A DNA stretch of 64,000 nt from Deltaproteobacteria bacterium (lineage in GTDB: Bacteria; Desulfobacterota; Desulfobacteria; Desulfobacterales; SpSt-501). The stretch covers positions 62,001 through 126,000 of the forward strand of contig JACRCN010000026.1 of the NCBI GenBank assembly GCA_016219005.1, written 5' to 3'. The position numbers were made by a program, and so were the translations under genes. Positions 26,408-44,060 of this stretch are shown in pieces; positions within the stretch are counted from its first letter, which is position 1; each line of letters begins with the position of its first letter. The notes below the pieces were generated by a model that did no database searches, was not told the DNA's origin, and saw nothing but the letters and a program-made list of their open reading frames with translations.

Positions 26408-27952
26408 TCATCCTTCCTCAACCCGCGTCATCTGCCCTTGCATCACCAGTTCCTCCAATGCGGATCGCCGGCCTTTGACTGCCTTCATGATCGCCCACAG
26501 GACCAGGAGCACTCCAATCCCGAGGATGATCGCACTCACAGGGCGCGTCACGAAGACGCTCAGGTCATTTTGATTCGCCAGCATGCTGGTCAGGAAGTAC
26601 TGCTCGGCCATGGGTCCGAGGATCAGGCCCATGACCAGCGGTGCGATCGGGAGGTCATAGCGCCGCATCACGTAGCCCAGGACGCCAAACAGCATCGTCA
26701 TCCAGACATCCGCCAAGTCGTTGCGGAGCGCGTAGCCGCCGAGGAAACAGAAGACGACGATAAAGGTGTTCAGAATGGCCGCCGGGACCTTCATCAGCGT
26801 GGCGAACGAGAACGCCGCGACATAGCCCATGAAAATCATGATGATATTGGCGAGGATCATCCCGGCGATGATCGTGAAGACCTCCACGGGCTGTTTGGTA
26901 AAAAGCAGAGGCCCGGGCTGTATGCCATGCAGGAGGAAGGCGCCCATCATTACTGCGGTAGCGGCGCTGCCGGGGATGCCAAGACAAAGGAGATGGACCA
27001 TCGCCCCGCCGGTTGAGCCGTTCACCGAGCTCTCCGATGCCACCAGCCCTCCCGCATGGCCCTTCCCGAACAGCTCCGGGGTCTTGGAGACCTGTCTTTC
27101 AAGCCCATACGAGACGAACGACGATACGGTTGCTCCTGCACCGGCGAGGCCGCCCACGACTACGCCGACCGCGGTTCCGCGTACGAGAGGCCAACGCAAC
27201 GGCCACAGATCGAGAAGCGGGAGGCGCGGCATCGCCTTCCTGACCGAGGTCTCTGGAACGGACTCAGGCGCAGCGCCGACAAGCTGTTCGAGCACCTCGC
27301 CGATCGCGAAGAGGCCGATAAGGACCGCCACGAAATCCACCCCCGAACTGAGAAAGGGCAGCCCGAAGGTGAAGCGCTCTACGCCATACTGGGCCTCGGT
27401 GCCGATCGTCCCCAGAAACATCCCAGCGAATAGCGAGATGAGGGCCGTGGTCATCGAGGAACTGCCGAGCACCGACACGCTCGCAAGTCCAAAGACGACC
27501 ACCGAGAAGAACTCCACGGTGGAAAACCCGAGCGCAAACTTGGCAAAGGGCGGCGCGAAGAAAGCGAGGCAGAGTGCACTCACGAGGCCGCCGAAGGCCG
27601 AACTCATGATCGCCAGACCGAGGGCATATTGGGTCTTGCCCTGACGGTTGAGCCGGTAGCCCTCCCAGGTGGTTGGGACGTTCATCGGGTCCCCGGGGAT
27701 ATTGAAGAGGATTCCCGTGATGGACCCTCCGAAGACTCCACCACAGTAGACGCCGATCATGAGGAGCAAGGCGGGTACGATCCCCATCAGGTACGTAAAG
27801 GGCAGCACGAGCACGATCGAGTTGATCATCGTAATGCCGGGGAGGGCTCCGGCGATGATGCCGATCAACAGGCCGAGGCTAATCATGAGAAAATTCATCG
27901 GTTGGACGGCATTGGCAAAACCGATCACAAGGTTCGCGAAGATATCCATCAT
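26408..27952 (-). CDS. tctA: Tripartite tricarboxylate transporter, large membrane subunit
   Basis: A 514-aa TctA-family permease with about twelve hydrophobic segments. Family motifs include GIIAGALPGITMINSIVLVLPFTY, IGVYCGGVFGGSITGILFNIPGDP and HLLCLGIPGSAATAVMMGAFLLHGIQPGP. The start is ATG 27952, or 27949 next to it, with AGGAA upstream. Together with TctB and the periplasmic TctC it forms a secondary, ion-driven, binding-protein-dependent importer for carboxylates (citrate in Salmonella; many other carboxylates in proteobacteria). The neighbouring enzymes suggest a C4-C6 acid or glutamate-related substrate. Confidence 0.92.
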   Translation of the reverse strand: MMDIFANLVIGFANAVQPMNFLMISLGLLIGIIAGALPGITMINSIVLVLPFTYLMGIVPALLLMIGVYCGGVFGGSITGILFNIPGDPMNVPTTWEGYRLNRQGKTQYALGLAIMSSAFGGLVSALCLAFFAPPFAKFALGFSTVEFFSVVVFGLASVSVLGSSSMTTALISLFAGMFLGTIGTEAQYGVERFTFGLPFLSSGVDFVAVLIGLFAIGEVLEQLVGAAPESVPETSVRKAMPRLPLLDLWPLRWPLVRGTAVGVVVGGLAGAGATVSSFVSYGLERQVSKTPELFGKGHAGGLVASESSVNGSTGGAMVHLLCLGIPGSAATAVMMGAFLLHGIQPGPLLFTKQPVEVFTIIAGMILANIIMIFMGYVAAFSFATLMKVPAAILNTFIVVFCFLGGYALRNDLADVWMTMLFGVLGYVMRRYDLPIAPLVMGLILGPMAEQYFLTSMLANQNDLSVFVTRPVSAIILGIGVLLVLWAIMKAVKGRRSALEELVMQGQMTRVEEG

Positions 27953-27962
27953 GCCTGTTCCT

Positions 27963-28472
27963 TTAAAAAAGGTACAGCGCCCGGTAGAGCGCAAGGGTGA
28001 AGCTCTCAAACAGTCCGTCGCCCTTAGGTAAGGGCAGGTACACGAACTTGATGAAAACGTAGAGCAGCAGCACGGTTCCCACGGCCACATTACCTGCGAT
28101 CATGGGAACGGAGCGTGCTCCCGAGAGCCACATGAAGGCGGCGATGAACCCGACGGTCGCCAGAACGAAGCCGATGAACGGGGCCAACAGCACGTAGAGG
28201 CCGATGAACGCGATGCCGGCGACGAGCCTCGCGCGCGACACGGGTGGGGGAAGCGCCGGACAGACGTCTCTTTCGCCGTAGGCGAAACGCACGTCCACGA
28301 TGAGTTTCGCAACGCAGGCGAGCGCAAGGCCAATGAGCGCCAACCGCGGCCAGAAGCCTGGCCCAAGCTGGCCGGGTTGCGCGATCTCGTTAAGACTTCC
28401 TGCCTGGAAGAAAAGCGCCGTGGATAGCAAGATGCCGGCAACAGGGGCCGGGGCGGTCCTGGTAAGTTTCAT
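27963..28472 (-). CDS. tctB: Tripartite tricarboxylate transporter, small membrane subunit
   Basis: A 169-aa protein with four hydrophobic segments and the usual TctB layout, including SLNEIAQPGQLGPGFWPRLALIGLAL and AFIGLYVLLAPFIGFVLATVGFIAAFMWL. TctB proteins are poorly conserved; the assignment rests on size, topology and its place between tctC and tctA (gaps of 7 and 10 bases). Confidence 0.88.
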   Translation of the reverse strand: MKLTRTAPAPVAGILLSTALFFQAGSLNEIAQPGQLGPGFWPRLALIGLALACVAKLIVDVRFAYGERDVCPALPPPVSRARLVAGIAFIGLYVLLAPFIGFVLATVGFIAAFMWLSGARSVPMIAGNVAVGTVLLLYVFIKFVYLPLPKGDGLFESFTLALYRALYLF

Positions 28473-28479
28473 CTTTCCC

Positions 28480-29478
28480 TCACTTTCGGAGACCGAACTC
28501 TATTATCAGCTTATTGAGGATCGCCACCTCACCGGCTACCCATTTCTCATACTCCTGTCGCCCCAGGTAGCTGTCGGGACGGATGTACCAGTCCTCGGCG
28601 AACTTCTTCCACTCCTGGGTCTCCATCGCCTTGCGCATCGCTTCCGCGATGGTCTGGGCGCAGTCCGCAGGCAGTCCCTTCTTCGCCACAATGCCTCGAA
28701 ACTGCGGCAAGGTGATGGAAAGGCCAAGTTCCGCCGAGGTCGGCACGTCCGGAAACGCCGGGAGCCGCTTTTCCGCAAAGATGATCAGGGGCCTGAGCTG
28801 GCCGGCCTCCAGGTACTGCTTCACATCGCCAGCCTGTTCGTAGAGCACCTCCGTGTGGCCGCCGAGAGCGGCGGCGTAACGCTCGCCAGGCTTCGGATAG
28901 GGGATGGTCGTCATCTTGTAGCCCTTCTTCTCGAGATATCTCACCGTCACGTCGTCGGGAGTCCCGAAGCCGGTCGCGGCCACCCGGAGTTTGCCGGGGT
29001 TGGCCTTGGCATACTCGAAGAGGTCTTGTACGGTTTTAAACGGGCTGTCACCCTTGACGAACAGGAAAGAGTCGGCTACCTGCGTGCGGACGAGCCACTC
29101 GAGGTCCTCGACCTTGTGGCGCGCCAGTCCCATCGGGATCGTCATCATCGTGTCCTGAACGTAGGCCGCGATCGTGTAGCCGTCCGCTTTCGAGCCGAGG
29201 AGCTGAGTAATCGCCACGTTTCCCGCGGCCCCGGGGAGGTTGGAGACCGGGAGTGCGACGCCGAGGATCGGCTGCGTCAGGCTCGAGAGCTGACGGGCCA
29301 TGGTATCGAGCCCTCCACCCGCACCAAAGGTACAGATCAGATCTATGGGCCGGGACGGGTACTTCTCGACCGTTTGTCCGCGGCACTCCTCGGCAGGAAT
29401 GCCAGCCATCAGGACAGCGGAGAACAGCAAGTATACGACAACACTCAGACACCTGCCGGGTTTCATTCTTTCTCTCAT
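28480..29478 (-). CDS. tctC: Tripartite tricarboxylate transporter, periplasmic binding protein
   Basis: A 332-aa Bug/TctC protein. It has an N-terminal signal peptide (CLSVVVYLLFSAVLMAGIPA), then YPSRPIDLICTFGAGGGLDTMAR and LPGAAGNVAITQLLGSKADGYTI, RVAATGFGTPDDV, GERYAAALGGHTEVLYEQ and the FPDVPTSAELG motif typical of Bug proteins. It binds a carboxylate in the periplasm and hands it to TctAB. GAAGGGGGGA precedes the ATG. A good sigma-54 promoter lies about 35-50 bases upstream (29512-29528), so tctCBA-glm has its own promoter. Confidence 0.92.
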   Translation of the reverse strand: MRERMKPGRCLSVVVYLLFSAVLMAGIPAEECRGQTVEKYPSRPIDLICTFGAGGGLDTMARQLSSLTQPILGVALPVSNLPGAAGNVAITQLLGSKADGYTIAAYVQDTMMTIPMGLARHKVEDLEWLVRTQVADSFLFVKGDSPFKTVQDLFEYAKANPGKLRVAATGFGTPDDVTVRYLEKKGYKMTTIPYPKPGERYAAALGGHTEVLYEQAGDVKQYLEAGQLRPLIIFAEKRLPAFPDVPTSAELGLSITLPQFRGIVAKKGLPADCAQTIAEAMRKAMETQEWKKFAEDWYIRPDSYLGRQEYEKWVAGEVAILNKLIIEFGLRK

Positions 29479-30663: not shown

Positions 30664-31251
30664 TTAAGCGAGTAGCTTTTCATATATTCCAGGCAGCCTG
30701 CGTTCAGCTTCCGCCTTGACCTCGAAATAGCGGTGACCGCCATGGCTGTCCATCGCCACGGTCAAGGGGCCGAAGTCCTTCACCTTGAACTTGTAAAGCG
30801 CCTCGGGGTGCAGGTGCTCCCAAAAAACCTCCTCCACCTCCTGGATCTGCTCGGTTTCCAGAGAGGCGGCGCCGCCGACGATTGCCAGATAAACCGCTCC
30901 GAACTTGCCCATTGCGTCCAGGCTTTGCCGATACTGGCCGCCTTTGCCGATAATGGCGCGTACCCCGCATTTCTCAAGCAGCCTGGGAGTGAAGCGGTCC
31001 ATGCGGGAGCTGGTGGTCGTGCCCACGCATATCTTTTCCCACTTGTCGCCGACCTTGCGAAGGCTGGGTGCGGTGTGGATAACCGGGTGACCCGCCATGT
31101 CCACCGGCGGCTCGTGATTCTGGTCAAACATGTAGATTTGGGTAAGATCCCGTATCCCGAAAAGGGTCCCGTCAAAATAGACAATATCGCCGATTTTGAG
31201 CTTTCGTATCGCTTGCTCGGAAAAGGCAGTTTCCAAATGATAGGTAGCCAT
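30664..31251 (-). CDS. Class I fumarase-type hydro-lyase, beta subunit
   Basis: A 195-aa C-terminal-type subunit of iron-sulfur hydro-lyases (fumarase/L-tartrate dehydratase). Landmarks are LKIGDIVYFDGTLFGIRDLTQ, PPVDMAGHPVIHTAP, VGTTTSSRMDRFTPRLLEKCGVRAIIGKGG and the terminal GPLTVAMDSHGGHRYFEV. I chose ATG 31251 (AGAGG upstream) over GTG 31269. With the alpha subunit it hydrates fumarate, or mesaconate or tartrate. Next to glutamate mutase, a mesaconate hydratase role is attractive but unproven. Confidence 0.88.
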   Translation of the reverse strand: MATYHLETAFSEQAIRKLKIGDIVYFDGTLFGIRDLTQIYMFDQNHEPPVDMAGHPVIHTAPSLRKVGDKWEKICVGTTTSSRMDRFTPRLLEKCGVRAIIGKGGQYRQSLDAMGKFGAVYLAIVGGAASLETEQIQEVEEVFWEHLHPEALYKFKVKDFGPLTVAMDSHGGHRYFEVKAEAERRLPGIYEKLLA

Positions 31252-31268
31252 AGCGCCTCTTTCTGACA

Positions 31269-32150
31269 CTAAAATCCGTATTCAATGTCACCGCTGGGGT
31301 GAATGATCGCGCGCGCGCGGCGGGCGGGCCAACACTGGGTGTTCACGGCCACGGGATTTTGGGTGATATGGGTGTAAGCCCACTCTATGTGCACCGCCAG
31401 GGTGGAGATGTCGCCGCCCAACCCCATGGGGCCGATCCCCGTGGCGTTGATGGCATCCTCTAATTCTTGTTCCATCTGAGCGATTAAAGGTTGCTGGCTG
31501 CGTTCGCCCACGGGCCGGGCGATGGCCTCTTTAGCCAGGCGCATTACCAGGTCGGCGGTGCCCCCGATGCCCACACCGATGATTCCCGGAGGGCAGGGGT
31601 TGCTGCCTGAGGCCACGAAGGCATCCAGCACAAACTTCTTCAGAGCGGCCTTGCCGTCGGCTGGGATGAACATCTTCATGGTGCTCATGTTCTCCGAGCC
31701 GGAACCCTTGGGTACCATCAGCATCTCCAAGCTATCGGAGCCCTCGACGAAATCCCAGTAGATGACCGGAAGGCCGCGACCCACCGAATCTTGAGGATTT
31801 ATCCTGGTGAGAATATGGGTGGAACTGCCCCGGAACGGAAACTCCAAGGTGGCGCGGCTGGCACCCTTGGACAGCCGCTTTTTGATCTCGGCCCCATTCC
31901 AGGGAAAATCGCTGCCTATCTTTACCATGTATATGGGAAGGCCGGTGTCCTGGCAAACCAGGGTCTTTTTCCGGTCCGCGATCTCTATGGCTTTGAACAT
32001 GGCCTTGAAGATTTCCCTGGCTGGGGGCTGGCTCTCGCGTTCATAGGCCCGTTTCAGGGCTCCGCGCACATCAGGGGGCAAGTCGGTCAACGCCTTGATA
32101 TAAACCTGCTTGGCAGCTTCTTCCACGGTGTTGTAGTCAAATTTCCGCAT
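31269..32150 (-). CDS. Class I fumarase-type hydro-lyase, alpha subunit ([4Fe-4S])
   Basis: A 293-aa alpha subunit. Three cluster cysteines are visible, in KTLVCQDTGLP, SGSNPCPPGIIGVGIGG and VNTQCWPARRARA. Other marks are SGSENMSTMKMF and GIGPMGLGGD. Start ATG 32150 has GGAG ten bases upstream. The two-subunit form is typical of anaerobes. Reaction candidates are fumarate/malate, mesaconate/citramalate and tartrate/oxaloacetate. It is oxygen-sensitive by family. Confidence 0.9.
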   Translation of the reverse strand: MRKFDYNTVEEAAKQVYIKALTDLPPDVRGALKRAYERESQPPAREIFKAMFKAIEIADRKKTLVCQDTGLPIYMVKIGSDFPWNGAEIKKRLSKGASRATLEFPFRGSSTHILTRINPQDSVGRGLPVIYWDFVEGSDSLEMLMVPKGSGSENMSTMKMFIPADGKAALKKFVLDAFVASGSNPCPPGIIGVGIGGTADLVMRLAKEAIARPVGERSQQPLIAQMEQELEDAINATGIGPMGLGGDISTLAVHIEWAYTHITQNPVAVNTQCWPARRARAIIHPSGDIEYGF

Positions 32151-32271
32151 GGCAGTTGTCTCCAACGATCAGGTAATCGCAATCGGCCATCTTGTGAGTT
32201 CCCTGCTCACGATGCCGCCGAATGGCCCGGCTCAAGAAACGCCCATCGGGGTTATGCGGCAGTTTTGCCAC
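32137..32271 (-). CDS. Candidate 44-aa small protein between the lyase genes
   Basis: GTG 32271, with GGAGG 9 bases upstream, opens a 44-codon frame. It begins (M)AKLPHNPDGRFLSRAIRRHR and ends DYLIVGDNCHAEI, and its stop overlaps the fumarase alpha start by 14 bases. The basic first half and the strong start context favour a real translated leader or small protein. There is no recognised family. Confidence 0.35.
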   Translation of the reverse strand: MAKLPHNPDGRFLSRAIRRHREQGTHKMADCDYLIVGDNCHAEI

Positions 32272-32321: not shown

Positions 32322-33485
32322 TCAGGCACTCTCGTAGAGCTTGGTGAGCACGAATTCTTCGTGACCGAGCACTTCCTGAGCAGTCAGCCGGCCGTTGCAG
32401 GTGCGCACCAGCATGTCCAGCAACTGGTCGCCGGCATCGTCCAAGGTCAGTTCACCGCGCAGAATTGCCGAACAGTCGTAATCGATGTGCTCGACCATGT
32501 CCTTCACCGTGCGTGGATTGGCCGAAAGTTTGATCACCGGCTCGATGGGGTTGCCGATAATGTTGCCCTGGCCGGTCGGGAACAAGTGTGCCACGAAGCC
32601 GCCCGCGGCCCACAGGGTCACGGCCTCTGCTGCGGCGCTGGAAGTGTCCATGTACCACAGCCCGGGCCCGGTGGGACTTACGGCCTTGTCCAGCACGCCC
32701 ACATAGTTGGCCTTCTTGCCGATTTTCTGCAGGTTGCCGAAAGCCTTTTCCTCGATGGTGGTCAACCCCCCGGCAATGTTGCCTTTGGTCGGCTGGCTGC
32801 CGGAAAGATCGTCTGTTTTATTGCGGTCGATCATTGCCGCGTAGCGATCGAACATCGCCATGAAGGCTTCGCCTAATTCGGGCGTGGCCCCCCGCGCCTT
32901 GCAAACCATCTCAGCGCCGGTAATTTCGGAGGTCTCCCCGAAAGAGCAGGTGCCCCCCATGGCCACCAGCTTTTCGACGGCGTTGCCAACGGTGGGGTTG
33001 GAGGCTAGCCCGGAGGTGGTGTCGCTCTCGCCGCATTTGACGCTCACCCAGACTTCGCTCAGGTCGCATTCCTCGCGCTTGAGCTCGCTGGCCCCGTGCA
33101 TGAATTCCTTGGCCTTCCAGCTGGCCATCTCCACGGTCTTGATCTCGCCGTAGCGTTCAATGGAAAATCCAGCCACCGGCTTGCCGGTTTTGGCGATGCC
33201 TTCCACGATGACGTTGGTCCACTGCGGTTCGATGCCGATGACCACCACTGCGGCCACGTTGGCGTTGGAGCCCGTGCCGATCATGGTGCGGAAGAACAAG
33301 GCCAGGTCTTCACCGAATTGCAGCCGTCCATAGGCGTGCGGGATCGCCTTGCAGCCCTTGACGTTGTGGGCCACCTTCCCGCAGGCCGAATTGCTCAGAT
33401 CGTCCAACGGCAGGATCACGACGTGATTGCGGATGCCCACCCGCCCGTTTTCGCGACGGTAGGCCATTACTTTCGGAGTCGCCAT
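32322..33485 (-). CDS. UxaA/SuyB-family lyase, large subunit ((2R)-sulfolactate sulfo-lyase-like)
   Basis: A 387-aa protein of the altronate dehydratase/UxaA C-terminal family: [105 protein letters not shown] and [19 protein letters not shown]. As I recall, its separate small SAF partner and length fit SuyB of sulfolactate sulfo-lyase better than single-chain altronate dehydratases. The enzyme eliminates water or sulfite from a 2-hydroxyacid. It follows the SAF subunit by 3 bases. The substrate is inferred only. Confidence 0.75.
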
Positions 33486-33488
33486 TTT

Positions 33489-33767
33489 CTACCACCTCCT
33501 GGTCTTGAGGTTATGAACGTGAACGTGGTCCCCCTTGCCGAAGGCCGTGACCACCCGACCGATATCGTGGCCGTATTTGATCACTCCGTCGTTCACGGCG
33601 TGACCCTTGAGGCCGATCTTGTGGCCCAGGGGAATGTCGTGGTTGGCCTTGAGCCGGATCTTCGCCTGGCTGTCCATGAAGAGACCCTCGGCGGTCTCGC
33701 CGGCCTTAATCTCCACCGTGGCAACGCCTACCGTGTCGGCCTGCTCGTGCACCAAGAACTGAATCAT
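33489..33767 (-). CDS. SAF-domain small subunit of a UxaA/SuyAB-type lyase
   Basis: A 92-aa SAF domain protein: FLVHEQADTVGVATVEIKAGE, HDIPLGHKIGLKGHAVNDGVIKYGHDIGR and the terminal DHVHVHNLKTRRW. This is the N-terminal domain of UxaA, here a free subunit as in SuyA. Its ATG overlaps the cytochrome b-c stop (ATGA), which ties this lyase translationally to the respiratory genes. It should form a heteromer with the 387-aa protein that follows. Confidence 0.78.
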   Translation of the reverse strand: MIQFLVHEQADTVGVATVEIKAGETAEGLFMDSQAKIRLKANHDIPLGHKIGLKGHAVNDGVIKYGHDIGRVVTAFGKGDHVHVHNLKTRRW

Positions 33768-35233
33768 CTGTTTCCTCCTTTGATGATGGGATGGGGTTTA
33801 ATACCTTCCGGCGCGCTGATCGCACCGGTTCGTTGCTGGATCTTGCCTGCGCGGACGTCCTCGGCCGTTGCGATCCGATGGCGACCCTGGCCTGGATTCA
33901 GCGACAGTATGAATTCGGCCAGCCCTTGCAGTTGTTCGGGGGGCAGGTCGTACTTGGGCATGATGGACAGGCTGCTGACCTTCTGCGGGTTCTTGATGAA
34001 CTCCATCATCGCATCCACTGTGCGTTTCTTGGCGGCCATGTTGGCCAAATCCGGGCCTTCACGCCGTCCGCCTTGGTTGCTGATGTTATGGCAGTAAGCG
34101 CATTCGCGCTCCACATACACCTCAAGGCCCCGGAGCTCGACCGGCGTCAGCGCTCGATCCGGTATGGGCACGACCTGGCCGTACGGCTGCACCCCGGAAA
34201 ATGCGGTGACGGTCAGATAGACCACGGCTACAACGCCGCTGACGCCGCAAGCGGCGGCCAGGGGTCTGTCCGCGAGGCGCCGCAAAGGCCAGCGGCCGAG
34301 CCAGGGAACGGCAAAGAGCATCGCCACCCCGGCCAGAGGTATGGCCAGAGAACCTACCGCTTCCCAGCGGCCGGAAAAGTAGGTCAGCAGTTGAAAGAGC
34401 CACATGTAGTACCACTCGGGGCGCGGCAGGTAAGCCGGGTCCACCGTGCCGGCCATCTTTTCCAGCGGCACATGGCCTAAGGCCGACAGCCCCGCCAGGG
34501 CGGCGAGCACCAACGCAAAAGCCGTCGAGGCCCTGGCCAGGTGCTCCGGATAGAAGCGGTAAATCCGTCCGGAGGTGGAATCCGATTGGCTGTCCGCGGC
34601 CATTCCGTGAAGGCGCACCAAGTAGATGTGCACGGCTGCGGATGTTAGCATCAAAGTCGGTAGAATCAGCATGTGGGTGGCGTAAAAGCGCGACAGGGTC
34701 AGCCCCGACACGCGATCGCCACCCAGCAGGACGCGGGTGACCACATCCCCTATAATCGGGATGTCGCGTGGAACGTTGCTGGACACCACCGTGGCCCAAT
34801 ACGCCTTCTGGTCCCAGGGCAGCAGGTACCCGGTAAACCCCATCCCCAGCGTGAGCAGCAACAGCATCGTGCCCACGACCCAGGTCATCTCCCGAGGGGC
34901 TTTGAAACTTCCGGTGAAGAAGACGTGCAGCAGGTGGCAGGCCACCAGAAACACCATGGCCCCGGCGCCCCAGTGGTGGATGCCGCGCAGGAGCCAGCCT
35001 AACTGGACGTCTTCCATGATGTACTGGATCGAACGATAGGCCAGATCCGGGGACGGGGTGTAATACATGGCCAGAACCATCCCCGTAACGGCCTCGACTG
35101 CAAAGGTCAGCGCGCACAGGCTGCCCAGGGTCGCTGACCAGCCGACCCCCGAGGGGAGTTTTTTGTAGAGGAAGGGGCGCAGATAAGTCTCCCAGCCGAA
35201 ACGATGGGCGAGAAATGCCGTCAACTGTGACAT
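33764..35233 (-). CDS. Cytochrome b (b6 plus subunit IV type) fused to a C-terminal cytochrome c domain
   Basis: A 489-aa membrane protein. The N-terminal part is cytochrome b with four haem-b histidines (H86/H187 and H100/H202, with FYATHMLILP and ACHLLHVFF contexts). The quinol-oxidation motif PEWY is at 272-275 (LPRPEWYYMWLFQLLTYF). After the last helices (about 330-347), residues 360-450 form a monohaem cytochrome c: CAYCH at 378-382 and an axial Met in SIMPKYDL. It is the quinol/cytochrome c part of a bc-type complex. It starts one base after the SdhB-Rieske stop and overlaps the SAF gene, so the operon is coupled. No separate cytochrome c1 gene is present. Confidence 0.88.
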   Translation of the reverse strand: MSQLTAFLAHRFGWETYLRPFLYKKLPSGVGWSATLGSLCALTFAVEAVTGMVLAMYYTPSPDLAYRSIQYIMEDVQLGWLLRGIHHWGAGAMVFLVACHLLHVFFTGSFKAPREMTWVVGTMLLLLTLGMGFTGYLLPWDQKAYWATVVSSNVPRDIPIIGDVVTRVLLGGDRVSGLTLSRFYATHMLILPTLMLTSAAVHIYLVRLHGMAADSQSDSTSGRIYRFYPEHLARASTAFALVLAALAGLSALGHVPLEKMAGTVDPAYLPRPEWYYMWLFQLLTYFSGRWEAVGSLAIPLAGVAMLFAVPWLGRWPLRRLADRPLAAACGVSGVVAVVYLTVTAFSGVQPYGQVVPIPDRALTPVELRGLEVYVERECAYCHNISNQGGRREGPDLANMAAKKRTVDAMMEFIKNPQKVSSLSIMPKYDLPPEQLQGLAEFILSLNPGQGRHRIATAEDVRAGKIQQRTGAISAPEGIKPHPIIKGGNR

Positions 35234-35234
35234 G

Positions 35235-36566
35235 TCAAACCACCTCCACCATCAGGCATCCGTTCTCCACCTTGAACCGGTAGGTATCCAGGGGCCGGGG
35301 GGGCGGCCCGGCGATGACCCGACCCTCGTGGTCGAATTGCCCGCCGTGGCAGGCGCAGACGTAGATGTTTTTGCCCGCGTCCCAGCGGACGGTGCAGCCC
35401 AGGTGGGTGCAGGTGGTGTTGAAGACAACCATGTTGTTGACATCGGCCCGTCGGCAGATCATCACCGGCTTGACCACCGTCTCCTTGTGGAAGCCGCTGG
35501 TCACCTCGTAACGCATGGTCACGGTTGAAACCTGGGCGGGCGCCAGGTCGTCCATGGGGCTGATGGGGATCCAGCGTCCTGGGGTCTTGGTCAGGGTGGG
35601 CCCAACCGCCGCCGTCGCCAGCAGTCCACCCACGCCCAGGGCGCTGGCCGCGCCGATCCCCATGATGACCCGCCTGAAAAACTGGCGCCGGGATGGATCG
35701 TCCGGCAATCCGCCGGCGGCAGCCACGGAGCAGGCCCCGGCGACGCAACCTGCGTGCTGCAAGACCGGCTCGAACGGGACTACCGCCACGGGCGGCGCCG
35801 GTTCTTCGGTCGCATTCGTCATTCCAGCCGGGCGGCTCAACTCGCCCAGGTGCTTGAGGGCCAGGCGCTGGATGTATTTGATAGCCCGAGTGGGGCTCAG
35901 CTCCTTGGGGCAGACTTCGGTGCAATTAAACTCGGTGCGGCAGTTGTAGCAGGACTGCAACACTGCCCGCAGGCGCTCCGCATTGCGGCCTTCGCGGCTG
36001 TCGGCCAGCAGCGTGAAGGCGCGGTTAAGCGCCGCCGGGCCGGCATAACCGTCGTGGTAGTTCACCATGGAGCAGCTCGACACGCAGCAGCCGCACTGGA
36101 TGCACTCGGTGGCCAGACCGATGTCCTGCCGCTCCCGTGCATCGGGGGGAATAACGGCTGGCTCGGGTTCGATGGTCCGGGGGCTGAAAAAGGGCATGGC
36201 GTCTTCGTATTTCTTGAAGAACGGCGTCATGTCCACCACAAGATCCTTCACCACCGGGAAGTGATTCAGAGGCCGAAGGGTGATATCCCTGTCGGGCGGA
36301 AGATCGCAGACATTGGTCTTGCAGGCCAGCCCCTCGCGGCCGTTGATCACCATGCCGCAAGAGCCGCACATGTTCACCCGGCAGGCGTACCGGAAGGCCA
36401 CGCTGGGGTCCTGCTCGCGCTGGATCCGAATGAGAATGTCGAGCATGGTGGTGCTGTTCGGGTGCGCAACATCCATCTCAAAGCGGTCATAGTGACCGTC
36501 GCCGCCGCGGGTCGGGTCGTAGCGAAAGACTTGGATAACTCTTCGTTGGTGGGCTGAGGTTGCCAT
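35235..36566 (-). CDS. Fusion of succinate dehydrogenase iron-sulfur subunit (SdhB) and Rieske protein
   Basis: One uninterrupted 443-aa frame. Residues 1-240 are SdhB: [2Fe-2S] cysteines C62, C67, C70 and C82 (ACRVNMCGSC...C), 4Fe-4S CIQCGCCVSSC (155-165), and the third cluster with C209, C215 and C219 in a NCTEVCPKELSPTRAI context. After a Pro/Ala linker, SRRQFF (292-297) plus a hydrophobic helix (about 298-324) form an internal Tat-type signal anchor. The C-terminus is a Rieske domain: CTHLGC (386-391) and CACHGGQFD (404-412). The expected topology has SdhB in the cytoplasm and Rieske outside. ATG 36566 has GGAG upstream; GTG 36578 is the alternative. An internal ATG at 35822 lacks a good ribosome-binding site. 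Confidence 0.88.
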   Translation of the reverse strand: MATSAHQRRVIQVFRYDPTRGGDGHYDRFEMDVAHPNSTTMLDILIRIQREQDPSVAFRYACRVNMCGSCGMVINGREGLACKTNVCDLPPDRDITLRPLNHFPVVKDLVVDMTPFFKKYEDAMPFFSPRTIEPEPAVIPPDARERQDIGLATECIQCGCCVSSCSMVNYHDGYAGPAALNRAFTLLADSREGRNAERLRAVLQSCYNCRTEFNCTEVCPKELSPTRAIKYIQRLALKHLGELSRPAGMTNATEEPAPPVAVVPFEPVLQHAGCVAGACSVAAAGGLPDDPSRRQFFRRVIMGIGAASALGVGGLLATAAVGPTLTKTPGRWIPISPMDDLAPAQVSTVTMRYEVTSGFHKETVVKPVMICRRADVNNMVVFNTTCTHLGCTVRWDAGKNIYVCACHGGQFDHEGRVIAGPPPRPLDTYRFKVENGCLMVEVV

Positions 36567-36581
36567 ATGCCGCTCCACAAA

Positions 36582-36975: not shown

Positions 36976-38724
36976 CTATTTGTTCACCTTGGGGGGCCTC
37001 TTGGAGTATTGCTGGCACTCCGCGAGGCTCTTGTGGACAAAGGCTACCGGCTGCCGCACTATCGCCGGCCGGCCGTCGGCGCCGCGCGTCAGCGTCACGT
37101 TGAACAGATACTGTTCGTCGTTTTGCTCGGGATAATCGATGCGGAAGTGGGCTCCGCGCTGCTCCTTGCGCTCCTGGGCCGAGGTGGCCACCATGCGCGA
37201 CACATCGATCATATTGAGCAAGTCGATGTAGGTCTGCCAGGGCATGTTGTAGGCGGCATGCCCCTCAACGGACACCGTTTCGCACGCCTCGGCGATAGCC
37301 TCGAACTCCGCGATAGCCTCGGATAGATCCTGCTCCCGGCGCGTCACTCCAACCTTGTTCCAGTTGGTCTCGCGGATCTGATCGCGCAGCACGAAGACGC
37401 GTTCGCCCGAAGAGCGTTCCAGCGGCCGCTCGTAGCGTGCGCACAGTTCTGCCACGCGGGCGGCATCCGGATGGGGCACCGCACCCCGCTCCGCTGTCAA
37501 GAACCGGGCTATGGACTTGCCCGCCTGGCGGCCGAAGACGCACGAGTCACAAACGCCGTTGCCGCCCAGGCGGTTGGCGCCGTGCACGCCCCCGGCGTCC
37601 TCGCCGGCGACAAAAAGCCGCTCCAAAGTCGTGTGGCAGTCCTTGTCGATTTGAGCCCCGCCCATGACGTAGTGGGCCGTAGGCGAGACAGGCACCTTAC
37701 CTCGCGCCAGGTCATATTTGAACTGCCGGCAGCGGGCTGCCATGCCGGGAAAATTCTTCTCGACGAACTCCGGCCCCAGGTGGGCGGCCACAATATGGAC
37801 CCCACCCTCGGCACAGGCCCGACCGGCCTGCATTTCCAGGTAGGATGAACGGCTCATAACGTCGCGGGTGGTGCGCTCCATTCGCGCCGGATCGTAGTTC
37901 GCCATGAATCGCTCGCCATTGCCGTTGAGCATGTAAGCACCGCAGCCGCGCAGCCCTTCTTCCAGAAGTGCGCCTGCCACGACGCTGCCCGGAATGATCA
38001 TGCCGGTGGGGTGAAACTGAACCATTTCCATGTCCCGCATGCGCACCCCGCTCCGGTAGAGCATGCCCAGGCCATCGACCGATTTTTCAGGGCCCGGAGC
38101 GTGAAAGCGGTACTGGGTCGGCCCGCCGCCGGTAGCCACCAAGGTGGCGCGAGCCTGCACCTGCACAAAGGCGCCGTTGCGCATGTTCAGCAGCAGGGCG
38201 CCTACCACCTGGCGGCCCTGCGCATCGGTGAGCAAGTCCAGTGCCCGGTGTTCTTCGAGTACCGGAATGCGGCGCTTCATGATCTGTTCGGTGGTACGAC
38301 TTATGATTTCAATGCCCGTCAGGTCACCCTTGTGAACGGTTCGGTCGAAGGACTGGCCGGCAAAGGCTTTTTGATGGATGGTGCCGTTGGGATTGCGGTC
38401 GAAGAAGCATCCATAGAGGGTTTCCATCTCTTTGATAGTCGGGGTGGCCTGCTCGACCAGCGTCTTGGCCAGATCCTGATCGTTGATGTACTGACCGCCC
38501 TTAAGAGTATCCATCAGGTGCATCTCGTGACTGTCGTCATCGTTGAGCACCGCGTTGAACCCGCCTTGGACCATCCGGGTACATCCGCCCTTGCCCTTGA
38601 GCGCCTTACAAACAATGAGGATTTTCAAAGACGGGTCGGCGTCGAACGCGTTCAGGGCGGCCAATTGACCAGCGCCCCCCATCCCGATAATCAGCACATC
38701 CGCATGTATCTTCTCGATGGTCAT
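36976..38724 (-). CDS. sdhA: Succinate dehydrogenase / fumarate reductase flavoprotein subunit
   Basis: A 582-aa flavoprotein: FAD-binding IIGMGGAGQLAALNA, substrate motifs HPTGMIIPGSVVAGALLEEGLRG, NGERFMANYDP, AHYVMGGAQID and GVHGANRLGGNGVCD. The residue that normally carries covalent FAD (His of SHTxxAQGG) is replaced: the sequence reads GCTRMVQGG, with Cys48 at that place. FAD may therefore be bound non-covalently, as in aspartate oxidase. I chose ATG 38724 (AGGA upstream); the longer frame runs into the promoter. It is the first gene of the Sdh-Rieske-cytochrome b operon, under a sigma-54 promoter. Confidence 0.9.
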   Translation of the reverse strand: MTIEKIHADVLIIGMGGAGQLAALNAFDADPSLKILIVCKALKGKGGCTRMVQGGFNAVLNDDDSHEMHLMDTLKGGQYINDQDLAKTLVEQATPTIKEMETLYGCFFDRNPNGTIHQKAFAGQSFDRTVHKGDLTGIEIISRTTEQIMKRRIPVLEEHRALDLLTDAQGRQVVGALLLNMRNGAFVQVQARATLVATGGGPTQYRFHAPGPEKSVDGLGMLYRSGVRMRDMEMVQFHPTGMIIPGSVVAGALLEEGLRGCGAYMLNGNGERFMANYDPARMERTTRDVMSRSSYLEMQAGRACAEGGVHIVAAHLGPEFVEKNFPGMAARCRQFKYDLARGKVPVSPTAHYVMGGAQIDKDCHTTLERLFVAGEDAGGVHGANRLGGNGVCDSCVFGRQAGKSIARFLTAERGAVPHPDAARVAELCARYERPLERSSGERVFVLRDQIRETNWNKVGVTRREQDLSEAIAEFEAIAEACETVSVEGHAAYNMPWQTYIDLLNMIDVSRMVATSAQERKEQRGAHFRIDYPEQNDEQYLFNVTLTRGADGRPAIVRQPVAFVHKSLAECQQYSKRPPKVNK

Positions 38725-38840: not shown

Positions 38841-38860
38841 AGTGCAACGCCGATGCCAAA
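38841..38860 (-). promoter_or_regulatory. Sigma-54 promoter of the sdh-bc operon
   Basis: Minus-strand TTTGGCATCGGCGTTGCACT matches YTGGCAC-N5-TTGCW with one difference (T for C after GGCA). GG and GC are correctly spaced. The start is predicted near 38832, giving a leader of about 108 nt before sdhA. Confidence 0.75.
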
Positions 38861-38873: not shown

Positions 38874-38950
38874 ATGCCGTCAATCATATCCACAGGTTAC
38901 ATAGAGAGAGGCAGCGCTGAACCCAAACCATTGAACCCAATTTTCGTATG

Positions 38951-39087: not shown

Positions 39088-40638
39088 ATGATGAACACGA
39101 AAAAATGGAATGCCGCTATACGATATGAATTCCTTCTGACGATCACAAACGCCGTGGTCACCCAAACCGACCGGGAAGCCCTTTTTTCTTCTCTCGCCAG
39201 CGAGATGAAAAAATACATCGAATACGACAGGTTGAGCATTTACATCCTGGATCAGGAGGCCAAGGCGATCAGCTACTTCGCCAAGGCCGACGGTGTTGTC
39301 CCCGAAGGCATGGGCAATCCTTCGGGTCGCCCCTTGGATAAGGCATCCATCGCCCAACTGGTCATCGACACCGGGAATCCGGTCATCATAGGCGACCTGG
39401 ACAGATATACGCGGTTCTCAACGGTTCCGGACATGCGAAAGGCCGGGCTGGTATCCACCATGGCCTTTCCGCTCATCACCCGCAACAGGGTGTTGGGAAC
39501 CATGCACATCTCATTCAAGCGCAAGCCTCGGGATTTCGCCGATCTCTCGACCGTACTCAACGACCTTTCCAAACAGGTGGCCATTGCCGTGGACAACATG
39601 CTGGCCCACACCCAGTTGCGCAACCTCAATGAAAATCTGGAGGTTCAGAAGCGCTACCTGCAGGCTCAGGCCAAATTGGAGCACACAAAGGATGTCTTCG
39701 TATTCACCTCCGAAAAGATGCGCCGAATCATGGAGCAGGCATCTATGGTGGCCCAATCCGACGCCTCGGTGATGATATCCGGAGAAACCGGAACCGGAAA
39801 GGATCTGCTCGCCCATCATATCCATGACACCAGCCCATTTGGCGATAACCTGTTTGTCAAGGTCAACTGCCCGGCCTTGGCGTCCGGCCTGTTCGAGAGC
39901 GAGCTTTTCGGGCATGAAAAAGGCGCATTCACGGGGGCATACACGCGCAGGATCGGCCGGTTCGAGATGGCCAATGGCGGCAGCGTGTTTCTGGACGAGA
40001 TCGGCGAGCTCCCTCTGTCGCTCCAGGCCAAACTCCTCCAGGTCTTGCAGGACGGCACCTTCGAGCGGGTGGGTGGCTCCAAATCTCTGAAGGCCGAGTT
40101 CAGGGTCATCGCCGCTACGAATCAAGACCTGCAGGAGGCGATGAATGCAGGACGCTTCCGAAGGGATTTGTACTACCGCCTGGCAGCAATGACCCTTCAT
40201 CTGCCCCCGCTGCGTGAACGTGCAGACGACATTGCCTTTCTCATTAAAAAATTCAGCACCTTCGAGGCTGCCAACGCGAGCCAGCCGGCCCCCATATTCA
40301 GCCCGTCGGCCATAGACGTTCTCTGTCGATACCCATGGCCGGGCAACGTGCGGGAGTTTAAGAGCTTCGTCAAGAAAATGTTCGTCTTGATGCCGGGGAA
40401 GGAGCTGACGGCTTCGGAAATCTCGATGTTTCTGGGTGAGTGCAGCGCCACGGGATGCGGGGAACTGACTGCACTGCTTGATCGCGAGAAGAAGATCATC
40501 GAAGAGACGCTGATGGTTTGCAGGGGGGTCGTCGGCGGGTCGCAGGGAGCTGCCAAGAAGCTGGGTTTGCCCACCTCAACCCTTCAATATCGATTGAAGA
40601 AGTTCAAGATCGACCCTAAGGATCCCAGACATGGATAA
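39088..40638 (+). CDS. GAF-domain sigma-54-dependent transcriptional activator
   Basis: A 516-aa regulator. A GAF sensor domain spans about residues 20-165, then a short coiled coil. The AAA+ domain has Walker A GETGTGKD, the sigma-54-contacting loop KGAFTGA, Walker B GGSVFLDEIGE, FRRDLYYRL and the arginine-finger region. A Fis-type HTH lies at the end (GAAKKLGLPTSTLQYRLKKFKI). It is divergent from the sdh-bc operon, and two -24/-12 promoters read into that cluster, so it is the likely activator. The GAF ligand is probably a substrate of the pathway. GGGAGG precedes ATG 39088. Confidence 0.92.
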   Translation: MMNTKKWNAAIRYEFLLTITNAVVTQTDREALFSSLASEMKKYIEYDRLSIYILDQEAKAISYFAKADGVVPEGMGNPSGRPLDKASIAQLVIDTGNPVIIGDLDRYTRFSTVPDMRKAGLVSTMAFPLITRNRVLGTMHISFKRKPRDFADLSTVLNDLSKQVAIAVDNMLAHTQLRNLNENLEVQKRYLQAQAKLEHTKDVFVFTSEKMRRIMEQASMVAQSDASVMISGETGTGKDLLAHHIHDTSPFGDNLFVKVNCPALASGLFESELFGHEKGAFTGAYTRRIGRFEMANGGSVFLDEIGELPLSLQAKLLQVLQDGTFERVGGSKSLKAEFRVIAATNQDLQEAMNAGRFRRDLYYRLAAMTLHLPPLRERADDIAFLIKKFSTFEAANASQPAPIFSPSAIDVLCRYPWPGNVREFKSFVKKMFVLMPGKELTASEISMFLGECSATGCGELTALLDREKKIIEETLMVCRGVVGGSQGAAKKLGLPTSTLQYRLKKFKIDPKDPRHG

Positions 40639-41871: not shown

Positions 41872-42726
41872 GTGGTTGAAAAACCCCATACCAAACAGAA
41901 GCGTCTGATCCCATCCTTTCGCGAATCCAAGCAGCGCGGGGAAAAAGTCACCATGATCACGGTCTACGATTACCCGATGGCCCGGCTGGTAGACCAGTCA
42001 ACGGCCGAACTGATCTTGGTAGGGGACTCCCTCGGCATGGTCATCCAGGGGCTGGAGCACACCAACCCGGTCACACTGGATGAAATGATCTACCATGTTA
42101 AAGCAGTGCGGCGCGGGGCGCCCAACACCTTGATCGTAGGGGATCTTCCGTTCATGAGCTATCAGATCAGCCCCGAGCAGGCGCTGATGACCGCCGGAAG
42201 AGTCGTGAAGGAAGGCGGGGCGGATTGCGTCAAGCTGGAGGGAGGGATCCATATGGCGCACCAGGTGGAGCGCATTGTCCAAGCCGGCATCCCGGTGATC
42301 GGGCACATCGGCTTGACGCCTCAGAGCGCGTCCGCCCTGGGGGGCTTCAAAGTTCAGGGCCGGACCCAGGCGGAAGCCGAACGACTGATTCTGGATGCCA
42401 AGGCTCTCGATGCCGCCGGAGTCTTCGCCATGGTCCTGGAATGCATCCCCGCCGGAGTCGCCAAGGCCATCACCACTTCGGTCAATCCCCTGACGATCGG
42501 CGTCGGTGCGGGGCTTTTCACGGATGGGCAGAACCTCAATGCCTACGATCTGCTGGGCATTTTCGATCGCTTCGTGCCCAAGTTTGCCAAGCAGTATTGC
42601 AGCATCGCTCCGCAAATCCGGGAGACCTTCAATTCATTCACAGACGAGGTCCGTTCGGGGACATACCCCGCCCCGGAAAATTGCTTCACGGGCAGCGATG
42701 AAATTCGAAAACTATATCCTGTTTGA
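41872..42726 (+). CDS. PanB-family enzyme (ketopantoate hydroxymethyltransferase-like), paralogue 1
   Basis: A 284-aa TIM-barrel protein of the PEP mutase/isocitrate lyase superfamily, PanB branch. Active-site positions of PanB are retained: VGDSLGMVIQG, VGDLPFMSY (Asp), DCVKLEGG (Lys), GHIGLTPQS (His) and MVLECIP (Glu). The GTG start has AAGGAG upstream. No panC or panD lies nearby. A second PanB paralogue follows two genes later, with a LarA homologue between them, so a catabolic retro-aldol type reaction on a branched 2-oxoacid is as plausible as pantothenate synthesis. Confidence 0.82.
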   Translation: MVEKPHTKQKRLIPSFRESKQRGEKVTMITVYDYPMARLVDQSTAELILVGDSLGMVIQGLEHTNPVTLDEMIYHVKAVRRGAPNTLIVGDLPFMSYQISPEQALMTAGRVVKEGGADCVKLEGGIHMAHQVERIVQAGIPVIGHIGLTPQSASALGGFKVQGRTQAEAERLILDAKALDAAGVFAMVLECIPAGVAKAITTSVNPLTIGVGAGLFTDGQNLNAYDLLGIFDRFVPKFAKQYCSIAPQIRETFNSFTDEVRSGTYPAPENCFTGSDEIRKLYPV

Positions 42727-42752
42727 TAAATCTTGAATGCAGAGGTGAAAAG

Positions 42753-44060
42753 ATGGCGTTTAGATCATTTTCGTTGCGCTACGGCAGGAGCAACGTTTCC
42801 TTCGAGTTGCCGGAGGACCAGATTTCCACCGTCATCACCGGCAGGGAAGTCAAGGCCATCGACAATCTGGAGGAAGCCTATCTCCACGCCCTGGACCACC
42901 CCATCGATTCCGCTCCTCTCCGCTACATGGTCAAACCCGGCGAGACCGTGGCGATCGCGGTCAGCGACATCACGCGTGTCTGGCAGAAAAACGACCAGAC
43001 CCTGCCGCTGCTTCTGAATTACTTGAACGATGCCGGGATACCCGACGAGAATATCCGCGTCATCATCGCCGTCGGCGGGCATCGCCAGAACACAGATGCC
43101 GAGTTCCAGGAGATCTGCGGCTCTGATGTCTGCCATCGCGTGCGGGTGGTCAATCACCAGTCCTGGGAAACGGAAGACATGGTTCCCATCGGCCGGACAA
43201 GCAGGGGCACGCAGGTTTCGATCAACAAGATTGCGGCCTCAGCCGACCGGATTCTCCTGACAGGCGGAGTGGTTTACCATTACATGGTGGGCTACGGCGG
43301 AGGCCGCAAGTCGGTCATCCCGGGCATTTGCTCGCTCGATACCATCAAGCAAAACCACCTCTGGGTGCTGGGGCAAAAAGTCGGTGCGGGAACCAATCCG
43401 CTTTGTGCCTCCGGGTCGACTGCAGACAATCCTTTGCACGAGGACATGATGGAAATCGCCGCCCTGGTGCGCCCTGACTTTTTGATCAACATCGTGCCGA
43501 ATTTGGCCGGTGAAATCGCCGGGATTTTCGCCGGGAACTGGGCCTCCGCCTGGTGGAAAGCGACCCGAATGGTGGACGATATCTTCGGTGTACCCATCGA
43601 AGAAGAGTCCGATATCGTCATCGCCACCGCCGGTGGTTACCCCAAGGATATCAACCTCTACCAGAGCCAGAAAACCATTGACAACGCCTGGCACGCCATG
43701 AAGCCGAATGGAGTCGCGATCATTCTCGCGGAGTGCCCGGACATAAGAGAGCCCAAGGAGTTTTTCGACTGGTTCGAGCACCGGGATCGCCTGGAAATGG
43801 AAAAGGCCTTGCGGGCGAACTACGTGTTGGCCGGATGGCTTGCGTTCCACCAGTTCGAATACCGTGACAAGGGGTTGATAATTCTGGTAACGCGCGAAGA
43901 AAATTTCCGCCATGCGGAGAAGGCGCAGCTGTATCCGGTCGCCTCCATCGAAGAAGCGCTACGGGTGTCGTACTCCCATTGTGGCACACCCAAGCCCCGC
44001 ATCACCGTGATGCCACAAGGGGCTAACACATTGCCGTTGCTGAAGAAGCGGTATGCGTAA
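42753..44060 (+). CDS. LarA-family (nickel-pincer) 2-hydroxyacid racemase/epimerase homologue
   Basis: A 435-aa DUF2088/LarA protein. LarA landmarks are present: DITRVWQKN, VGGHRQNTDAEF, YHYMVGYGGGRKSVIPGIC (the Lys that tethers the nickel-pincer cofactor and a catalytic His region) and NPLHEDMMEIA. The family racemises or epimerises 2-hydroxyacids using a nickel pincer nucleotide made by LarBCE, whose genes are not in the window. ATG 42753 has GAGGTG upstream. It is flanked on both sides by PanB paralogues, 26 and 43 bases away. Substrate unknown. Confidence 0.82.
   Translation: MAFRSFSLRYGRSNVSFELPEDQISTVITGREVKAIDNLEEAYLHALDHPIDSAPLRYMVKPGETVAIAVSDITRVWQKNDQTLPLLLNYLNDAGIPDENIRVIIAVGGHRQNTDAEFQEICGSDVCHRVRVVNHQSWETEDMVPIGRTSRGTQVSINKIAASADRILLTGGVVYHYMVGYGGGRKSVIPGICSLDTIKQNHLWVLGQKVGAGTNPLCASGSTADNPLHEDMMEIAALVRPDFLINIVPNLAGEIAGIFAGNWASAWWKATRMVDDIFGVPIEEESDIVIATAGGYPKDINLYQSQKTIDNAWHAMKPNGVAIILAECPDIREPKEFFDWFEHRDRLEMEKALRANYVLAGWLAFHQFEYRDKGLIILVTREENFRHAEKAQLYPVASIEEALRVSYSHCGTPKPRITVMPQGANTLPLLKKRYA

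Follow-up and report, generated by a model that had tools for sequence, protein, structure and literature searches.

One open frame in the window (the whole stretch of 64,000 nucleotides analyzed here) encodes the iron–sulfur subunit SdhB, a linker, a twin-arginine motif, a membrane helix, and a Rieske head in a single polypeptide. Complex II and complex III are normally separate enzymes. The fusion is real and conserved, and no description of it was found in the open-access literature searched; subscription journals lay mostly outside the scope of this search, and the fusion may have been described there or in other sources. The single frame, its conservation, the intact cluster ligands, the topology signals, and the operon are directly visible in the DNA. 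The preferred interpretation is a covalently tethered complex II–III that works as a dicarboxylate:cytochrome c oxidoreductase via quinone, with SdhB inside and the Rieske head outside. This reading is given a probability of roughly 0.6, as the assembly, activity, and direction are inferred.

The open frame spans positions 35235 to 36578 of the minus strand, and the ATG at 36566 is preceded six bases upstream by GGAG. In the encoded protein, Pfam detects Fer2_3 (residues 15–121, E 9e-33), Fer4_8/Fer4_17 (residues 157–228), and Rieske (residues 367–433, E 3e-11). Matches in the PDB divide accordingly between E. coli and mitochondrial SdhB (residues about 15–242) and Rieske proteins (residues about 366–446). 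The AlphaFold model shows the helix at 293–325 and a confident Rieske head. The 4Fe (second) half of SdhB lies mostly below a pLDDT of 50, and the structure models are weak overall (mean pLDDT 60 and 61). For SdhB, the model is too poor to locate the point at which the linker departs. The coordinates of all features are collected in Table 1.

Table 1. Features of the fused gene, its operon, and its surroundings (positions in the window)
Feature	Position	Strand	Remarks
Fused SdhB–Rieske gene	35235..36566	-	443 aa from ATG 36566; 447 aa if GTG 36578 is the start
SdhB domain, residues about 1–240	35847..36566	-	Pfam and alignment; cluster-ligand Cys invariant
Linker region	35691..35846	-	26–71 residues, median 42, n = 26 sequences including the window
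Tat motif SRRQFF (Arg-Arg at 35685–35690) and single membrane helix, residues 293–325	35592..35690	-	
Rieske head, residues 326–443, CTHLGC and CACHGG	35238..35591	-	Pfam, alignment, AlphaFold, structure matches
Cytochrome b (b6-type, His86/100/187/202, PEWY), subunit-IV-like part, and one c-heme domain (CAYCH)	33764..35233	-	
SdhC, 113 aa, three predicted helices	36582..36923	-	Only membrane-anchor gene seen in the operon
SdhA flavoprotein	36976..38724	-	Start at ATG 38724 inferred (the longest ORF begins at 38883); Cys in place of the FAD-linking His
Sigma-54 type promoter-like site TGGCATCGGCGTTGCA	38843..38858	-	134 bases before sdhA
Divergent sigma-54 activator with GAF domain	39088..40638	+	Homolog in 13/25 family loci
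UxaA/altronate-dehydratase-like protein (associated gene)	32322..33485	-	Homolog in 10/25 family loci
Class I fumarase alpha subunit (associated gene)	31269..32165	-	
Class I fumarase beta subunit (associated gene)	30664..31269	-	

The species-genome collection was scanned with two short peptide patterns, which gave 26 loci. One of them (L061, 37% identical and unfused) falls outside the family, and the family thus comprises at least 25 loci. Both domains share one frame in 24 of these; in the 25th (L057) a contig end interrupts the gene, and a Rieske–cytochrome b piece (L090) runs off the edge of another contig in the same genome. Imperfect among the 24 fused frames are L047 (no start), L055 (runs into a contig end), and L056 (contains a run of N). 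These loci and L057 are left out of the alignment A2, which has 22 rows (the window and 21 complete homologs). Fer2_3, Fer4_8, and Rieske are matched in all 22 rows, and the Pfam model of the PetC anchor in three. In the alignment, 103 columns are invariant in 22/22, including Arg293-Arg294 and the cluster-ligand cysteines and histidines. The linker varies in length across the 26 sequences compared (Table 1). Hydropathy predicts one helix directly behind the twin arginines in 24/26 rows, with L060 staying under the threshold and L057 being cut; L039 has one extra helix hit. The fusion is kept intact at 51–72% identity across several classes.

The carriers are scattered, mostly sulfate-reducer-like bacteria, and the spread is patchy. 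They include one isolate, Desulfovibrio cuneatus DSM 11391, as well as MAGs of Desulfobacterales, Desulfocapsaceae, Desulfarculaceae, and Syntrophaceae. Further MAGs are labeled Nitrospirae, Acidobacteria, and Sumerlaeota; some of the phylum labels may be binning errors. The fusion was not seen as a genus-level trait: in a sample of 57 further related genomes, of which six share the genus of the window, no hit extended over both halves, with not every frame read. It occurs in 5/388 other genomes of the class at E 1e-48, where sdhC and cytochrome b-c lie beside it in 5/5 and sdhA in 4/5, and in 5/394 other genomes of the phylum at 1e-55 (up to four candidates per genome scored in both samples). 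In the family of genome G660 (apparently Desulfovibrionaceae), 10/199 genomes carry it, nine at full length and one partially. It is found in 0/244 other genomes of the phylum of the "Nitrospirae" MAG, and no relatives were found in viral contigs. The class, phylum, and family counts overlap, with several genomes recurring between samples.

The fused gene is embedded in a conserved operon. On the minus strand of the window, the order is sdhA, sdhC, the fused gene, cytochrome b-c, a 92-aa ORF, the UxaA-like gene, and the two fumarase subunits. The upstream genes sdhA and sdhC were detected in 23 and 24 of the 25 loci, respectively, and the downstream cytochrome b-c gene in 23; contig ends or a run of N (sdhA in L042) account for the misses. 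In the cytochrome b, the second histidine pair (187/202) has b6-type spacing, and His86, His100, His187, and His202 are invariant in 16 rows. The Qo motif is present in 23/24 rows (PEWY in 20 and PDWY in three), the row of L038 ending before it. The c-heme motif CxYCH is present in 21/24 rows, and the other three end before it. Seven helices are predicted for the cytochrome b, which would place the c-heme domain on the Rieske side of the membrane.

SdhC proteins of the family have 112–118 aa, carry His50 and His70 invariant in 16 rows, and lack a conserved cysteine. In the window, sdhC is separated by 52 bases from sdhA and by 3 bases from the fused gene, which leaves no room there for an SdhD gene. 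SdhC is inferred to form a homodimer. A single SdhC is also encoded in the operons of the closest unfused relatives, so that completion of the anchor does not depend on the Rieske helix.

The original prediction, made from the sequence alone and without naming the strand, had claimed that one frame holds SdhB, a linker, a Tat motif with a helix, and a Rieske domain. ORF, Pfam, and alignment confirm this claim on the minus strand, and the proposed order of SdhB, linker, Tat signal-anchor, and Rieske holds in 22 complete aligned proteins. The proposed search for the domain order Fer2_3/Fer4 then Rieske finds it in one frame in 24 of the 25 family loci. The suggestion that SdhB stays in the cytoplasm and the Rieske head is exported is supported by the anchor and by the cytochrome b topology; it remains an inference from sequence. 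That no characterized enzyme has such a layout agrees with the open-access literature searched. The layout extends beyond this claim, as the conserved operon adds SdhA, a single SdhC, and cytochrome b-c. The fused protein thus appears as part of a complex II–III unit and no isolated oddity, which is inferred from sequence in the absence of protein, activity, or complex data.

In the preferred reading, SdhA and the SdhB half would form the cytoplasmic head that passes electrons between a dicarboxylate and quinone at SdhC. The linker would lead to an uncleaved Tat signal-anchor that makes a single pass through the membrane, and the Rieske head would be exported in folded form to the outside. There it would serve as electron carrier between the Qo site and the c-heme domain, both of which belong to the cytochrome b-c protein of the operon. 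The complete chain would comprise the dicarboxylate, FAD, the three SdhB clusters, quinone at SdhC, Qo, the Rieske head, the c-heme, and a periplasmic cytochrome. The fusion would fix a 1:1 ratio and keep the bc complex near the site where complex II handles quinone. The net reaction would most likely run from succinate to periplasmic cytochrome c; the direction is the weakest step. With menaquinone, which is assumed here, the first step would be uphill, and the attached bc complex would help by quick withdrawal of quinol. Each half is standard biochemistry, and the new element is SdhB and Rieske in one chain. One physical supercomplex, the topology in vivo, and any benefit are inferred from sequence, with no measurements on the protein, its structure, or its activity behind them.

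Rieske proteins with uncleaved Tat anchors are known, and those of actinobacteria have a working internal twin-arginine motif between helices 2 and 3 (PMC5449189). The actinobacterial proteins are a partial precedent for Tat export behind other protein parts. The fusion itself provides a natural example in which a Tat signal follows a complete cytoplasmic iron–sulfur protein.

A bolder version is possible. The enzyme would then be a hard-wired dicarboxylate:cytochrome c oxidoreductase, and in several bacteria the sole complex III would be a limb of complex II. An SdhC homodimer with two b hemes would transfer electrons across the membrane, and quinol would be passed within the assembly instead of through a free pool. 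If true, bc respiration would be obligatorily coupled to C4-dicarboxylates.

The SdhB half shares its cluster domains with SdhB/FrdB of complex II (150 bits for residues 15–242 against 1nek_B, the SdhB of E. coli), and the 2Fe-2S and 4Fe-type domains together with the SdhA and anchor genes alongside make it a member of this group. In contrast to SdhB/FrdB, the fused protein adds about 200 C-terminal residues with the membrane helix and Rieske head, and its partner SdhC is a single three-helix protein. The Rieske half has the Tat motif, the anchor helix, and the head with CTHLGC/CACHGG in common with PetC/QcrA of bc1/b6f complexes. Its top match by sequence and fold is a Chlorobaculum protein (8hn2), followed by b6f proteins. 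Two cysteine and two histidine ligands in a Rieske fold and an adjoining cytochrome b with four heme histidines and a Qo motif are both present, as in bc/b6f Rieske proteins. The Tat motif and helix are not N-terminal but internal (293–325), behind a complete SdhB. Serine and tyrosine raise the potential in high-potential Rieske proteins; the fused head reads CACHGG-x-F and lacks both of these residues.

Class F complex II (Mycobacterium smegmatis Sdh1, PDB 7D6V) also combines complex II with a Rieske-type cluster (PMC10238741), and the top PDB match for the SdhA in the window is the SdhA of this enzyme. The difference is that the class F cluster sits in a six-helix membrane subunit, whereas here a whole bc-type Rieske domain is fused to SdhB and has its own cytochrome b-c partner. 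The class F trait of a single six-helix subunit with a Rieske cluster is not met: SdhC has three helices and no conserved cysteine, and the ligands are in the fused head. Class A SdhC (M. smegmatis Sdh2, PDB 6LUM) is the best solved match of the SdhC family, and both histidine-bearing helices align. The pair of three-helix membrane subunits that bind two b hemes in class A is not found, as sdhC is the only such gene between sdhA and the fusion; a distant SdhD would fall outside the search. None of the six complex II classes that a 2023 review distinguishes by the membrane part fits the fused system, judged by its figure legend (PMC10238741). Supercomplexes with complexes II and III (Tetrahymena, 8gym; Perkinsus marinus CII2CIII2CIV2, 9fq7) likewise hold both enzymes in one assembly. 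These mitochondrial supercomplexes consist of separate subunits with non-covalent contacts.

Channeling of electron carriers between respiratory complexes is an open question, and so is the reason for the loose attachment of complex II in supercomplexes (PMC10238741). Because a peptide bond joins complexes II and III here and a named isolate is among the carriers, channeling, stoichiometry, and the succinate–menaquinone energy problem become testable in one enzyme.

In 11/26 fusion genomes, no Rieske match other than the fused gene was detected. One of these is G410, in which the fused gene is split by contig ends. G409 is not counted, since its single Rieske match is a separate unfused gene and its fused copy is masked by N at the second ligand motif. 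Most of the fusion genomes are MAGs, so that a missing Rieske gene may reflect incompleteness; D. cuneatus is an isolate. The window's genome (L001, G000) holds a second, separate 179-aa Rieske gene on contig C97; its neighbors are an apparent fragment of a cytochrome b and a CxxCH-containing protein. A second strong Fer2_3 (SdhB/FrdB-like) match is found in 22/26 fusion genomes. The heme-copper oxidase COX1 is present in 18/26 fusion genomes and 74/147 controls (p 0.09; the control sample contains at least two fusion genomes). As it is not clearly enriched, no terminal acceptor is identified. At E below 1e-100 the numbers are 9/26 and 18/147 (p 0.008), but this cut was chosen post hoc and is confounded by lineage. 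The link to oxygen respiration is a lead only.

In the SdhB-domain tree, the 28 fused rows and the cut L057 form one clade (support 100/97). The Rieske-domain tree does not firmly show a single origin (53/67). The next SdhB relatives, weakly placed (85/55), belong to an unfused family of which three loci were read (L076–L078). Their operons run Rieske-cytb-sdhA-sdhC-sdhB, and the next gene encodes a CxxCH motif. Since their cytochrome b shares about 31% identity with the one in the fused operon, the pairing of complex II and bc may have arisen more than once, which is a possibility that the Rieske tree leaves unresolved. The Rieske proteins of these loci have CPCHD in place of CxCHG, and in L077 one heme histidine of the cytochrome b is apparently a tyrosine.

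G409 contains, besides the fused operon (L056), a separate unfused sdhC-sdhA-sdhB-Rieske-cytb set (L098, contig C76, 7130–11438). Here, sdhB and Rieske overlap in different frames, SdhA keeps the FAD-linking histidine, and succinyl-CoA synthetase-like genes adjoin (by eye). The SdhB is 38% identical and lies outside the fused clade. Because this unfused operon is also present, the fused complex may have another role in G409. Complex II and bc genes therefore share operons in at least three SdhB lineages (L076–L078, L098, and the fused clade) and are fused into one protein in one of them. The unfused shared operons in two other lineages, one of them beside succinyl-CoA synthetase-like genes, indicate that coupling of complexes II and III is useful.

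The most serious alternative is the same tethered complex acting as a fumarate reductase, with the bc part reversed or sharing quinol and with electrons running from periplasmic cytochromes or quinol to fumarate. It is ranked well behind the preferred reading and falls clearly short of even odds. In its favor, a cysteine occupies the position of the FAD-linking histidine in 23/23 covering SdhA rows of the family and in all six SdhA sequences read from unfused relatives, within a motif (GKGGC[ST]RMVQGG) that these relatives also have. Possibly this cysteine means non-covalent FAD, although the FAD chemistry is only inferred from the residue. Studied homologs with non-covalent FAD reduce fumarate and do not oxidize succinate (PMC9557727). 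The conserved FAD-linking histidine of succinate-oxidizing complex II is thus missing, which keeps fumarate reduction open; a cysteine-linked FAD is not excluded. The SdhA also keeps HPTG, EGLRG, HYVMGG, and NRLGGN, which are motifs known from FrdA. Its best NCBIfam score is for the fumarate reductase TfrA, below the cut-off (527.7 of 718 bits). Class I fumarase genes lie near the fusion in 18/25 loci. Finally, the second, histidine-type complex II of G409 with its unfused bc operon could be the succinate oxidizer there, and this locus raises the alternative and slightly lowers the preferred reading.

Against the fumarate reductase, cysteine can bind FAD covalently in other flavoenzymes, so that the direction cannot be read from this residue. 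In addition, a bc complex with a Qo motif and a Rieske protein normally oxidizes quinol, and the second SdhB/FrdB-like match in most fusion genomes could serve the other direction. Succinate oxidation by the tethered complex II–III is therefore retained without a strong commitment on direction, mainly because of the cysteine site and the fumarate-only activity of enzymes with non-covalent FAD.

A real fusion without functional coupling, in which read-through of two operon neighbors is merely tolerated, is unlikely. The overlapping frames of sdhB and Rieske in L098 imply that a frame change could fuse such neighbors, and the genes of L076–L078 share an operon in another order. Against it stand the distance of the L098 SdhB from the fused clade, the unbroken fusion at the divergence given above, and the 11 genomes in which the fused gene is the only Rieske match.

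It is likewise doubtful that the protein is split after translation, or that an internal start yields a separate Rieske protein, leaving two ordinary complexes. In-frame start codons occur in or near the linker in 23/26 sequences, and the variable linkers could serve as protease sites. However, a Shine-Dalgarno-like sequence is found at the internal starts in only 2/26, compared with 18/26 at the genes' own starts. This control is generous, as every start codon within the first 30 codons was tried. The internal-start scan covers L036 and L047 only partly (measured to the wrong Arg-Arg), and the linker and start scans leave out L055, L056, L057, and the duplicates L082 and L083. The original prediction had named 35822 as a possible start; a separate Rieske protein from this position is rejected, as the ATG is not conserved in six aligned proteins and lacks a Shine-Dalgarno-like sequence. 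The sole row of the fused clade without a Rieske half is the contig-cut L057.

An assembly or sequencing artifact is all but excluded: the genome that holds the window is a draft in 106 contigs, but nothing in favor was found at the junction itself, an assembly join is rejected by the frame shared in all family loci except the contig-cut one, the identical junction recurs in 24 records (some near-copies) including an isolate, and no aligned fused row contains an X except inside the Rieske head of L056.

Upstream of sdhA, a sigma-54 site with at most one mismatch is found in 8/22 loci including the window (0.04 expected from mononucleotide shuffles); L037 and L038 in this count are near-copies. 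Over the whole window, such sites are no commoner than chance (4 vs 4.5), and the site before sdhA is the only perfect match to a looser sigma-54 pattern. TctA and TctC transporter genes (26408–29478) lie near the fumarase genes, which suggests that carboxylate uptake belongs to the same pathway. The 92-aa ORF that precedes the UxaA-like gene (both within 32322–33767) has no Pfam match. A cytochrome bc–fumarase fusion in L040 was rejected, as it bridges a run of N. A threonyl-tRNA synthetase in the place of sdhA (L042/L033) was also rejected, as it lies across a run of N and a scaffold join is most likely. At 41872–44060, a ketopantoate hydroxymethyltransferase-like gene and then a LarA-like lactate racemase gene follow behind an IclR regulator, which is an odd pairing.
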